From contig JAAYCY010000008.1 of the NCBI GenBank assembly GCA_012729535.1, forward strand, positions 1-64,000: 64,000 bases of DNA. Reading direction: 5' to 3'. The notes beneath the pieces were generated by a model, which ran no database searches, had not been told where the DNA came from, and was given only the letters and a program-made list of their open reading frames with translations. The translations under genes were made by a program, and so were the position numbers. Source of the DNA: Methanomicrobiales archaeon (GTDB lineage Archaea; Halobacteriota; Methanomicrobia; Methanomicrobiales; Methanospirillaceae). This document shows positions 28,412 to 33,989 of this stretch, piece after piece (position 1 is the first letter of the stretch; the number at the start of each line of letters is the position of its first letter).

Positions 28412-29113
28412 ATGGCCTTTTGGAATAGAAAAAAAATAGAATCTCCTTCTGATGATGTCAGTCAGGATATACCAGATAAGCCTGCAATATTACTGGATAA
28501 GGAACAAAGAGCGAAATCTGAAAATATCCCTCAAAAAAGGCTAAAGATTCCATTAAACAAGACAACAGTCGACGTTAAATACGTTCGTAATACGATTGTT
28601 TTTCCCTGCCCTATATGTAATGAATGGAACACGGCAGATCTTTCAGATCTGGATCCTATTATGGGAGGAGATCTGATGTGTTTGCACTGCCAGGTTATGT
28701 TTCATATTCCTGGAGGATATAAAACCAAAACTGAATTATCAAACCTGAAAATCTATGCAGGACTTCCTGTTGCGATAAGAAAGTTTCCAATCTTTTACTG
28801 GAACCATCCCACCATTAATGAACTTGATGAACAGGGTATTACCGGAATAATTATCCAATATGGTCTATGGGGTTATTGTCAAAAGTGTCACCACCAGTTC
28901 AGTGCGGCAGTCCTGATGAATCTTCCCCAGACTGCAGGAGAGGTTGTTGATTACCGTTCCTTAAGTTCTGACGAGATGGTAGAAATGAAGTCGTTAAGAC
29001 AGGGGAGTTGTCCCTATTGTTCCCATCGTATCCTTCTGGTAATCATTTCAGATGTTCCCCACTATGTAATATCTGCAAGTGAGAACCTTGCTCACCGGTG
29101 GGAAGAGGATTAA
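28412..29113 (+). CDS. double zinc-ribbon protein
   Basis: 233 residues. Two CxxC...CxxC zinc ribbons: FPCPICNEWN paired with MCLHCQVMFHI at about 67-95, and GYCQKCHHQF paired with GSCPYCSHR at about 152-205. The N-terminal 50 residues are charged and disordered. Between the ribbons the chain is alpha/beta (LKIYAGLPVAIRKFPIFYWN). GGAG precedes the ATG. I do not recognise the family; zinc ribbons often bind nucleic acids or partner proteins. Confidence 0.7.
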   Translation: MAFWNRKKIESPSDDVSQDIPDKPAILLDKEQRAKSENIPQKRLKIPLNKTTVDVKYVRNTIVFPCPICNEWNTADLSDLDPIMGGDLMCLHCQVMFHIPGGYKTKTELSNLKIYAGLPVAIRKFPIFYWNHPTINELDEQGITGIIIQYGLWGYCQKCHHQFSAAVLMNLPQTAGEVVDYRSLSSDEMVEMKSLRQGSCPYCSHRILLVIISDVPHYVISASENLAHRWEED

Positions 29114-29126
29114 GATTTCCTGTAGA

Positions 29127-29690
29127 CTATTTGATGGTAATATCTACAAATCTCTCAATAATCCATTCATTTCTGACTTCCGGATGAAAAAGAACCCCAT
29201 ACCAAAACTTATCAGAATACCTGACAATCTGTGCAGTATTCTTTGAATGTGCAAGGACGGTCCATGTTTCAGGAATGGTAGTAGCATATTGGTGCAGGGC
29301 ATATCCTGAAAATTCGTCTTTTCCCTTAGTCAATATGTCCTCTTTGCCATCACAGGAAAGGGTGACTGGTATCATGCCAATCTCAAGGGACTGGATTACA
29401 ACTCCTCCTGATTCAGAAAGTAACATCTGCATTCCTGCACATATGCCAAGTATCGGAACATTGTACCTGGAAACCAAAGGTTCAATTCTTTTGTCTTTAT
29501 ACCATGAATCTGCAAGTGCAGTCCCACATATAATAATACCAGTTACCTTATGTTTTATCTGGATGAGATCTGAAATATGAATTTTTTTTACACTGATACC
29601 TTTTTGCTCAATTATACGAGCAACGGGGCTTACAAATTCATCACACAGCACTGGGACAACCGGGTTTGAAATATCCAGCACTAGTATCAA
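29127..29690 (-). CDS. class I glutamine amidotransferase coupled to a Dph6-like ligase
   Basis: 187 residues. Triad-type glutaminase domain with nucleophile Cys84 (PILGICAGMQML) and His169-Glu171 (GVLFHPEVRNEW). It resembles GMP synthase subunit A, but a more orthodox one is encoded at 33429-33989. Its ATG overlaps the stop of the Dph6-like gene by four bases (29687-29690), so the ligase and this glutaminase are co-translated. That is the same pairing of glutaminase and ATP-pyrophosphatase found in GMP synthase. It probably feeds ammonia to that ligase; this is inference. Confidence 0.8.
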   Translation of the reverse strand: MILVLDISNPVVPVLCDEFVSPVARIIEQKGISVKKIHISDLIQIKHKVTGIIICGTALADSWYKDKRIEPLVSRYNVPILGICAGMQMLLSESGGVVIQSLEIGMIPVTLSCDGKEDILTKGKDEFSGYALHQYATTIPETWTVLAHSKNTAQIVRYSDKFWYGVLFHPEVRNEWIIERFVDITIK

Positions 29691-30367
29691 GAGATCAGTC
29701 CCGCCTCTTTAACATGATAATACCCTGCCCCATGTTCAAAAATTTTATCTGCATCTTTAATTATTATCCTCTGTTTAAAAAATGGGGCATAACAGACAAA
29801 ACTTTCATATTCTCCACCTTCACCTGCCAATGAAATCTGGTATTTTCCTGATATTTTTGAAATCCGATCAATGAAAGAATTGTCAATCCATGTTCCAAGC
29901 CATGATGCATCAAATGGATCTGCATAGACACCTGCAATAATCACTTCAAATCCATCGGATATCAGCGATCGAATATATGATTCCTGGTCACATAACCAGA
30001 GGGGAGATATACACCATAATCCTTCCTGGTGACATATCCGTTCAATTCGGGAAGCCTGATAAACAGACTGGATTGCTCCGGTAACAATTCCGTCCAGATG
30101 AAATTCCTTTGCAGCCCGGGTAATCGCATTATTCAGGTCATCAAGTTCTTCTTCCTCAACCCCCTGTGTTTTTTCTTCCAACAGGGTGATACCTGAAGCT
30201 TTAGCCTGCAATCTGGTAAGAGAAATGTTTGGGGTATGAAACATGTAACTTTCAGCATTTTGTGAATTTATTGTTATAAAACAAGCAATTTCTCCTCCAG
30301 TTTGCATTATTTTCCAAGTTGCATAAAGGGAATCTTTCCCTCCTGATAATAATACCCCAAATTTCAT
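29687..30367 (-). CDS. Dph6-like ATP-pyrophosphatase (diphthine-ammonia ligase family)
   Basis: 226 residues. The PP-loop SGGKDS is at 8-13. It carries the Dph6 signatures GIVTGAIQSVYQASRIERIC and AGEGGEYESFVCYAPFF near the C-terminus. Dph6 makes the last step of diphthamide on elongation factor 2, using ATP and ammonium. Here the stop overlaps the start of a glutaminase gene and its start overlaps the GNAT stop by one base (TAATG). The length matches archaeal single-domain members. A related role on another carboxylate substrate is possible. Confidence 0.85.
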   Translation of the reverse strand: MKFGVLLSGGKDSLYATWKIMQTGGEIACFITINSQNAESYMFHTPNISLTRLQAKASGITLLEEKTQGVEEEELDDLNNAITRAAKEFHLDGIVTGAIQSVYQASRIERICHQEGLWCISPLWLCDQESYIRSLISDGFEVIIAGVYADPFDASWLGTWIDNSFIDRISKISGKYQISLAGEGGEYESFVCYAPFFKQRIIIKDADKIFEHGAGYYHVKEAGLIS

Positions 30368-31694: not shown

Positions 31695-32897
31695 CTAGAT
31701 CAGGTTTGTGATTGCAGTCCACAGATTGGAAAAACCCTGTCCCAGAACTATAGTCGGATCAATTCCCAGTATTGGAAAGATGAATATAAAATATGCAAAT
31801 GTCCCGATGCTGGATCCTACATTAGCAAGTGCTGCAACCAGTACTACTTTAAAAAGCGGTATCTTTCGCATTTCTGTAATTGATTGAGCTTCCATTATCT
31901 TTTTAAAATCAGAACCTCTTGGTTTTCTTATTTTTGCCTCTGCTATCGCTGCAAACCATCCGGCGGCAATCAAGGGGTGTAGTGATGACAATGGACTTAT
32001 CAAAAATCCAACAAGCCCTGAAATTGGATGTCCTCCGGCGATTATTGTAAAGATAAAAGTCAGGCACCCGTTTATCAGGATCCAATACAAAATTGCCTGA
32101 AGCAATATCTCTGTTCCAACTCCTGAGAACACTATGGCAAGAATGAGTAGAAGGAAAATCCCTGTAATTATGACTCCAAATATCAGTCCCCAAGGTCTGG
32201 TTTTCATTTGGGATGTAAGGCTTTCAAGAGTTGGCAGGGTATCAGGGCTTCGAAGATATCCTTCAATTCCCTTCCTGTGGCCTGCACCAACAACGGCTAG
32301 TACTCGTTCATTAGCTGAAGCTAACCGGATGAGGTTATGAGACATGTAAGCGTCACGTTCACCTATAAGAGCTGTAGCCCCACGTGGTGAGTATCTATAA
32401 AACTCTTCCATGGCTGCTTCAACAACATTTTCATTTTTGAGTTCTTCGATATCAATGACATCGCCTGTTTTATCAGCAACTGCAATGGAACCGATAAGAG
32501 CGTAAAACATCTTAAATTTTTCAAATATTGACATTGATGCCCAGAAACGATGAAGTGTCATTCTGATATCCCGATCAATGAGTGCAATTTTGACCTGGTG
32601 TTCCTCTGCTGCATTTATCGCTGCTTTCATTTCTGCACCGGGTTCAACACCAACATCCATCCCGATCCTTCTTTGGATATATGCGAGAATCCATTGGACA
32701 AGCAGCTGGGTGAAGTTTTTAGCCTGAAGAATGTCTTCGATCTCCGGGTTATTCTGCTGTTGTTTCAAGCCCAGATATCTGCCCTGATCGAGTTCAATAG
32801 CCACAACGTCCGGTTGCCATTCTTCAATAGCAGTAATAACTTCTTCTACACTTTTTTGTGAGACATGTGCTGTCCCGATTATTTTTATTTCACCCAT
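31695..32897 (-). CDS. TraB/GumN-family membrane protein
   Basis: 400 residues. The N-terminal catalytic-like domain has the GTAHVSQKSVEEV motif at 8-20, ELDQGRYLGL, and YRYSPRGATALIGERDAYMS plus VVGAGHRKGIEGYL, as in the TraB family (erythromycin/pheromone shutdown type and Tiki-like proteases). The C-terminal 150 residues contain about five transmembrane helices. The family is suspected to hold metalloprotease activity, but function in archaea is unknown. It overlaps the upstream YkgJ gene's stop by eight bases. Confidence 0.9.
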   Translation of the reverse strand: MGEIKIIGTAHVSQKSVEEVITAIEEWQPDVVAIELDQGRYLGLKQQQNNPEIEDILQAKNFTQLLVQWILAYIQRRIGMDVGVEPGAEMKAAINAAEEHQVKIALIDRDIRMTLHRFWASMSIFEKFKMFYALIGSIAVADKTGDVIDIEELKNENVVEAAMEEFYRYSPRGATALIGERDAYMSHNLIRLASANERVLAVVGAGHRKGIEGYLRSPDTLPTLESLTSQMKTRPWGLIFGVIITGIFLLLILAIVFSGVGTEILLQAILYWILINGCLTFIFTIIAGGHPISGLVGFLISPLSSLHPLIAAGWFAAIAEAKIRKPRGSDFKKIMEAQSITEMRKIPLFKVVLVAALANVGSSIGTFAYFIFIFPILGIDPTIVLGQGFSNLWTAITNLI

Positions 32898-33447
32898 GGT
32901 ATTCCTTAATTCCTTCCCCGTCTATTACGACAGGTATCCCGGTTGGTATTGTTTTAGTCATTAATAATTTCCGTATTTTTTCTTCATCCTGGTGTTCATA
33001 TTCCTGGCGCTTTATGAGATCCAGGGCAATTTGATGTGGGTTTTCTGTCATCTGTTTTTTATGCAATCCGTTACAGGGGTGGGTATGCAATTGATTATTA
33101 TCCAATACAAACGGATATGTTCTGCATATCCAGGGGCGAAATTCATAGATTGTACACCTATTTTTAGAAAGGAAGATACATTTGTTTTCTTTTTGATGAA
33201 TTACCCAACCGAACGTATAATCTCTGCCGTCATCATGAATCCTTTCTGGATATGGTTCTGCAATCTCTTCAAAAGAAAGTCCGGTTCCATCCATAATCTG
33301 CCGGATCTCTTCCGGACCCACCATCACCCGGTTTGAACCGGGTTCACTTTCTGTACAACATGCACCACAACATGTGCAGGAAAAACCGGATTCCCGAATA
33401 GTCCTGACAAGTGTGGGTGGAGCAGTAGTTAATCCGAATTCTGGCAT
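32890..33447 (-). CDS. YkgJ-family cysteine cluster protein
   Basis: 185 residues. The cysteine cluster FSCTCCGACCTESEPG at about 23-38, the segment CIFLSKNRCTIYEFRPWICR and later TYPFVLDN are the YkgJ/UPF0153 pattern, thought to bind zinc or an Fe-S cluster. The fold's role is unknown. A second member of the family is at 54219-54941. It overlaps guaAA by 19 bases. Confidence 0.9.
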   Translation of the reverse strand: MPEFGLTTAPPTLVRTIRESGFSCTCCGACCTESEPGSNRVMVGPEEIRQIMDGTGLSFEEIAEPYPERIHDDGRDYTFGWVIHQKENKCIFLSKNRCTIYEFRPWICRTYPFVLDNNQLHTHPCNGLHKKQMTENPHQIALDLIKRQEYEHQDEEKIRKLLMTKTIPTGIPVVIDGEGIKEYHG

Positions 33448-33989
33448 ATTCTGCTGAAGTTTTCAAAAATTCGATAACCTTCAAATGTATGGCTGACTTC
33501 CGGGTGCCACTGAATACCAAAAATACTTTTATTCAGGTGGGCAATAGCCTCATTTCCACATATTGAGGAGGTTGCAAGCCGCTTAAATCCTGGTGGAATT
33601 GATATTACCTCATCCGCATGGGAAGCCCATACCTGCATAGTTTCAGGGTAACCCTTAAGGATTTCATCATGTTCTGTTATCGTCACATTTACTGCGCCAT
33701 ATCCGCCTTTCTGTCCTGATTGCACCTTTCCATTAAATTCATCTGCAATAACATGTAGTCCAAGACAAATACCAAGAACAGGTTTTTCCAGGTGCAGGTA
33801 TTGGGAGGATATTCCTGCACGGTTTATATCAGGGCCCCCCCCAAGAATTATTCCCTGGCACCCATCACTCACCTCCTGTATGGGGGTAGTATTTGGGATG
33901 AGTTTAGCTTCAATATCAAGATCCCGCAGGGTACGCAATATGAGATGATTAAACTGGCCATAATTGTTGACCACGAATAATGGAAGCAT
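33429..33989 (-). CDS. guaAA: GMP synthase glutaminase subunit A
   Basis: 186 residues, the usual length of the archaeal stand-alone subunit. It shows NNYGQFNHLILRTLRDLDIE, then GGGPDINRAG, Cys75 (VLGICLGLHVIADEF), the GGYGAVNVTI segment, and His162-Glu164 (IQWHPEVSH). It supplies ammonia to a separate ATP-pyrophosphatase subunit (GuaAB), which is not in this window. It starts the minus-strand run that continues through YkgJ, TraB and the ligase genes; CobT lies 36 bases upstream. Confidence 0.95.
   Translation of the reverse strand: MLPLFVVNNYGQFNHLILRTLRDLDIEAKLIPNTTPIQEVSDGCQGIILGGGPDINRAGISSQYLHLEKPVLGICLGLHVIADEFNGKVQSGQKGGYGAVNVTITEHDEILKGYPETMQVWASHADEVISIPPGFKRLATSSICGNEAIAHLNKSIFGIQWHPEVSHTFEGYRIFENFSRICQNSD

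Follow-up and report, generated by a model that had tools for sequence, protein, structure and literature searches.

Why a glutaminase gene should overlap the gene of a Dph6-like ATP pyrophosphatase, in a gene run that already holds an orthodox GMP synthase subunit A (GuaAA), is the question raised by the window analysed here, a 64,000-nucleotide stretch of a Methanomicrobiales genome. A preliminary description of the window proposed that the glutaminase channels ammonia to the Dph6-like protein, or else that the pair amidates another carboxylate. Answering the question depends on what the two proteins are, how constantly their genes keep company, and whether the active site of the glutaminase is maintained wherever the gene is found.

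Identity of the two genes

The upstream gene of the pair encodes the ligase, whose features are as follows.

29687..30367, minus strand: Dph6 (diphthine--ammonia ligase), a PP-loop ATP pyrophosphatase of 226 aa (TIGR03679, PF01902; nearest structures 2d13 and 3rk1)
30329..30346, minus strand: PP-loop SGGKDS, residues 8-13 of the ligase, invariant in the alignment of relatives
30233..30250, minus strand: SYMFHT, ligase residues 40-45, with Ser, Tyr and His equivalent to S44, Y45 and H48 of PF0828 (alignment, PMC3541065)
30056..30061, minus strand: Tyr103-Gln104 of the ligase, predicted EF-2 contact residues (alignment, PMC3541065)
29804..29821, minus strand: EGGEYE signature, ligase residues 183-188 (alignment, PMC3541065)

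In profile searches, the ligase scored 282.5 bits with TIGR03679, the equivalog model of archaeal Dph6 (cut-off 197.3), and 218 bits with PF01902, its only Pfam domain, which sets it outside the layout of class-II glutamine amidotransferase (GATase)/AsnB-Dph6 fusions. The closest solved structures by alignment to the PDB are Pyrococcus PH1257 (2d13) and PF0828 (3rk1). For PF0828, de Crecy-Lagard et al. (PMC3541065) described the residues thought to bind ATP and EF-2; the Dph6 motifs are the PP-loop and EGG(E/D)xE, and the published EF-2 contact set comprises S44, Y45, E78, Y103, Q104, A149, E183, E186 and E188 (PF0828 numbering). Counterparts of all were found in the PDB and family alignments (SGGKDS, S40, Y41, H44, E74, Y103, Q104, A149, E183, E186 and E188). 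The label "Dph6-like" can now be sharpened: carrying all published signature residues, the ligase is by its sequence a member of archaeal Dph6, with amidation of diphthine-EF2 as its predicted reaction.

The downstream gene encodes the glutaminase.

29127..29690, minus strand: Dph6-partner class-I glutamine amidotransferase (glutaminase subunit), 187 aa, TTG start (PF00117, own clade, model)
29687..29690, minus strand: TTGA shared by the stop of the ligase and the start of the glutaminase (sequence)
29439..29441, minus strand: predicted catalytic Cys84, codon TGT 29441-29439, in the GICAG nucleophile elbow (sequence, alignment)
29184..29186, minus strand: predicted catalytic His169, codon CAT 29186-29184 (sequence, alignment)
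29178..29180, minus strand: predicted catalytic Glu171, codon GAA 29180-29178 (sequence, alignment)

The four-base overlap and the intact triad reported in the preliminary description were both confirmed: the TGA stop of the ligase (29689-29687) and the TTG start of the glutaminase (29690-29688) lie in a shared TTGA, and all three catalytic codons are present. The TTG start is supported by relatives, whose ATG starts occupy the identical alignment column. Against PF00117, the glutaminase scored 67.4 bits (gathering score 22.8), with the Cys-His-Glu triad and GxCxG elbow in place, and a structural model of the protein reached a pLDDT of 93.5. To judge from these residues, it is a class-I (triad) GATase with predicted glutaminase activity.

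The pair is embedded in a longer series of genes. Between 29127 and 31673, methyltransferase, GNAT acetyltransferase, Dph6 and glutaminase genes meet at three junctions, each abutting or overlapping by 1-4 bases, and the methyltransferase and GNAT genes were found close to the pair in Methanospirillum-group loci alone. A run of GuaAA, a CxxCxxCC-domain protein and a TraB-family protein (31695-33989) is likewise kept in loci of that group. A larger operon of common function (GuaAA, CxxCxxCC, TraB, methyltransferase and GNAT) was considered and rejected, as the genes other than GuaAA lie near the pair only in six Methanospirillum-group loci; the 70 GuaAA matches near pairs were mostly weak and fell on the paired GATase itself. 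Facing the pair on the plus strand, an ORF at 28412-29113 has paired, zinc-ribbon-like CxxC motifs and matches no Pfam family.

Conservation of the pair

Across 150 Methanomicrobiales genomes, the glutaminase was found in 84; in 83 of these it follows Dph6 immediately and on its strand, and in the remaining genome the two genes are on separate short contigs. Strand, order and immediate adjacency are therefore the same in 83/83 testable genomes. One further paired-type Dph6 (G050) is interrupted by a contig end. In 55 genomes, Dph6 is of another, solo type (mostly 33-41% identity), and none of these has the glutaminase (0/55); paired and solo Dph6 types are mutually exclusive in the Methanomicrobiales surveyed. 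The solo type (L070-L075, L079), present in about a third of Methanomicrobiales sampled, forms its own clade, and one type stands in for the other even within genera g4 and g15.

A single-sequence scan of genome contigs gave no match, and a profile scan of GTDB genomes recovered 338 relatives, of which the best 80 were examined. Among these best 80 of 338, Dph6 lies immediately upstream in 79, the remaining one beginning at a contig end. The records with the pair in this subset include Methanomicrobiales, Methanothrix, Nanohaloarchaeota, Aenigmarchaeota, Nanoarchaeota, Altiarchaeales, marine Euryarchaeota and Thermoplasmatota. Adjacency, which the preliminary description had put forward as a point on which its proposal could fail, thus holds in 83/83 Methanomicrobiales genomes and in 79/79 testable named loci across several archaeal phyla, two sets that have genomes in common and are not independent, and these counts rule out chance linkage of the two genes. 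Two exceptions in the phylum survey count against a glutamine-fed pair, namely a paired-type Dph6 without an adjacent GATase (G279) and a GATase located 1.4 kb downstream (G152).

Contigs labelled Desulfobacterales (L121) and "bacterium" (L175) bear an archaeal pair, the score of L175 being that of the archaeal L169, and are probably misbinned methanogen DNA. A 98% complete genome (G002, f3 g14) has a paired Dph6, Dph5 and EF-2, and nothing in it matched the Dph2 model TIGR03682.

Natural fusions and structural models

Within one genus, three genomes (G087, G091 and G127) encode Dph6 and the glutaminase as a single open frame in which a variable linker joins them, although the contig of the G127 fusion stops short of the last residues. 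Another candidate, L127, was discarded because its junction is unknown sequence in the assembly. The AlphaFold2 model of the G091 fusion, computed from alignment rows of separate, unpaired subunits, has a pLDDT of 87 and a pTM of 0.85, with disorder confined to one loop and the linker. As the two domains are of comparable size, we read so high a pTM as the program being confident of their relative placement. A Foldseek search of the fusion model against the PDB returned no two-domain match, each domain being matched singly, and a GMP-synthetase-like arrangement is therefore neither supported nor contradicted by it.

Proposed mechanism

We consider that the pair is, with a probability of roughly three in four, a glutamine-dependent diphthine amidotransferase of two subunits, on the plan of archaeal GMP synthetase. 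Diphthamide is a modified amino acid of the translation factor EF-2, and Dph6 catalyses the last step of its synthesis. The Dph6 subunit would use ATP to activate the diphthine carboxylate on EF-2, while the class-I GATase subunit would hydrolyse glutamine at Cys84. By analogy with archaeal GMP synthetase and its A and B subunits, the ammonia would be handed to Dph6 inside a complex, where it would amidate the activated diphthine. Against this reading weigh the merely single-domain matches of the fusion model and the ability of known Dph6 enzymes to work with ammonium, so that glutamine is not strictly needed for the reaction.

Loss of the catalytic cysteine

The full triad is present in 147/199 retrieved glutaminase sequences (redundancy kept). 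In Methanoculleus (g16), Cys84 is replaced by Ser in 22/22 genomes examined, complete genomes included, and in the Methanotrichaceae genus g64 both Cys and His are lost (5/5 genomes). Sporadic losses affect Cys in L114, L189 and G087, accompanied in L114 by loss of His, and His alone in G199. The Cys-less gene still sits beside Dph6 and is under purifying selection, with a median dN/dS of 0.31 in Methanoculleus and 0.25 in g64, compared with 0.24 and 0.26 in two Cys-bearing groups. Loss of the Cys with retention of the gene speaks against a universal glutaminase role. The partner subunit thus very likely has some role besides glutamine hydrolysis, probably a non-catalytic one.

These losses are also the main attraction of a rival reading, in which the partner is chiefly a structural or regulatory subunit of Dph6 (serving, e.g., EF-2 binding or stability) and glutamine hydrolysis can be dispensed with, or does not occur, even in the organism of the window. 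The nucleophile has been lost repeatedly with the gene kept beside Dph6, and constraint on the Cys-less gene (dN/dS 0.25-0.31) is close to that in Cys-bearing groups (0.24-0.26). However, triad and elbow are kept in the window and in most lineages, distant phyla included, and such long retention of Cys, His and Glu is unexpected under a purely structural role. We therefore regard this reading as unlikely, albeit the strongest of the competitors.

Under the glutamine-dependent amidotransferase that we favour, lineages lacking Cys84 would probably have kept the partner as a structural or regulatory subunit and run Dph6 on free ammonium; a weak, Ser-dependent activity may persist in Methanoculleus. 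With the catalytic Cys missing from the retained partner in Methanoculleus and some other lineages, a supply of ammonia from glutamine is probably not universal. The original proposal, that the glutaminase would channel ammonia to the Dph6-like protein, is supported by comparative genomics: it came through on all three points named as able to refute it, the glutaminase lying outside GuaAA, the adjacency being conserved and the ligase having the Dph6 signature residues. Its extension to every bearer of the gene is improbable. Methanoculleus is prominent in high-ammonia digesters (e.g., PMC12776343 and PMC8154354), which fits free-ammonium use without testing it. More tentatively, and a little short of even odds, we envisage that archaeal Dph6 includes a deep group whose enzymes work with a class-I glutaminase subunit of their own, and that this subunit several times (all Methanoculleus examined, a Methanotrichaceae genus and others) turned catalytically dead and yet stayed under selection, perhaps where ammonium is plentiful.

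Substrate of the pair

The window ligase is the sole Dph6 match in its host genome, which also encodes Dph2 and Dph5 and an EF-2 carrying the diphthamide histidine loop LHEDAIHRGPAQ. Diphthamide synthesis in this genome should thus be complete only if the window ligase is its Dph6, which makes the "another carboxylate" alternative of the preliminary description the less likely one. A glutamine-dependent ligase with a substrate other than diphthine has some appeal in that PF01902 is not confined to Dph6: one subgroup is linked to B12 (PMC3541065), and the divergent second PF01902 copies in a few genomes of the family (L077, L078) probably belong to it. Such a substrate nevertheless appears improbable for the pair, more so than a structural partner, given that the ligase exceeds the TIGR03679 cut-off with all Dph6 signature residues present, that it is the only Dph6 candidate in genomes keeping the upstream pathway and the EF-2 loop, and that paired and solo Dph6 exclude one another.

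In a careful Dph6 tree, solo rows group with AsnB-fused ones (97/96), separately from every paired row; with its root unsettled, this tree is compatible both with gain of the pairing and with ancestral pairing followed by loss. A quick tree differs in that the paired rows form a clade (94) adjoining the AsnB-fusion clade. One locus of the latter kind, L086, has class-II GATase, Asn synthase and Dph6 in a single chain (Pfam).

Relation to GMP synthase subunit A

33429..33989, minus strand: orthodox GMP synthase subunit A (GuaAA), outside the pair and in a different clade (NF001975, tree)

This GuaAA scored 253.5 bits against NF001975 (cut-off 198), whereas the window glutaminase fell below the GuaAA cut-offs (67 vs 198 bits for NF001975 and 74.4 vs 172 for TIGR00888) and no NCBIfam model reached its cut-off on it. 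In a tree of 105 rows, paired glutaminases (SH-aLRT 93) and GuaAA (SH-aLRT 97) form separate clades, and in the phylum search the glutaminase family scored at least 118 bits (92 for one split gene), compared with at most 87 for GuaAA and others. The glutaminase model is nearest to GuaAA structures (TM about 0.8, identity 20-27%), which, together with the separate clades, marks GuaAA as a relative in fold and not as its orthologue group. The earlier view that this second glutaminase has no obvious role in GMP synthesis, with a true GuaAA in the same gene run, is thereby borne out; placement within GuaAA, the outcome that would have undone it, did not occur, and a GuaAA paralogue is ruled out by cut-offs and tree. 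Among the seven class-I GATases of the host genome (the other six being TrpG/PabA, CarA, PyrG, GuaAA, HisH and CobQ-type), the window glutaminase is the only one without a standard role. That it is a second GMP synthetase A subunit, beside dph6 merely by position, is already contradicted and hardly credible: GuaAA supplies its closest solved structures and sequence relatives, but the scores and clades differ, the true GuaAA lies 3.7 kb off, and the protein is constantly linked, and in one genus fused, to Dph6.

Comparison with known systems and implications

The window ligase has fold, PP-loop, EGGExE and EF-2 contact residues in common with archaeal Dph6 (TIGR03679; PF0828, 3rk1; PH1257, 2d13), although PH1257 falls among Dph6 rows without a linked class-I glutaminase in the careful tree. 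Two-subunit archaeal GMP synthetase (GuaAA and GuaAB) is alike in that a separate class-I triad GATase serves a PP-loop ATP pyrophosphatase and in having the GATase fold closest to that of the window protein; it is unlike in that the window ligase is Dph6 and not GuaAB, and the window GATase forms its own clade below the GuaAA cut-offs. Dph6 requires NH3, and fused GAT-II/AsnB or RidA modules have been proposed as its source (PMC3541065). The AsnB/GAT-II-Dph6 fusions, which occur in Methanosarcina relatives and others (de Crecy-Lagard 2012, PMC3541065), also tie a glutamine-hydrolysing module to Dph6, but through an N-terminal fusion of a class-II GATase with an extra Asn-synthase PP-loop domain, in another Dph6 clade. 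Fungal and plant Dph6 bear a C-terminal RidA/YjgF module, likewise proposed to supply ammonia (PMC3541065, PMC3585130), which belongs to an imine-deaminase family and is no glutaminase; yeast Dph6 needs its RidA domains, and human Dph6 is without them (PMC3585130).

Glutamine-derived ammonia for Dph6 was thus already proposed in 2012 for the class-II GATase/AsnB fusions (PMC3541065). Our full-text search, covering open-licence papers only, found no class-I GATase named as a Dph6 partner, and an earlier description elsewhere is possible. What emerges here, and is well supported by comparative genomics, is a predicted class-I glutaminase subunit with Dph6, its most surprising feature being recurrent loss of the active site. 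While earlier proposals for ammonia supply concern domain fusions (class-II GATase/AsnB, RidA), the pair adds a third, widespread, separate-subunit solution, and suggests a function for a GATase claimed by no NCBIfam model at cut-off. As a natural two-gene operon, it makes directly assayable whether diphthamide can be made from glutamine, and the Cys-less lineages are natural mutants in which glutamine hydrolysis is separable from any structural role.

Many archaea carry, next to Dph6, a dedicated glutamine-splitting partner gene that probably supplies ammonia. If the dead-subunit reading is true, the subunit would contribute to diphthamide synthesis in a second way, with archaea switching the nitrogen source of the modification between glutamine and free ammonium.
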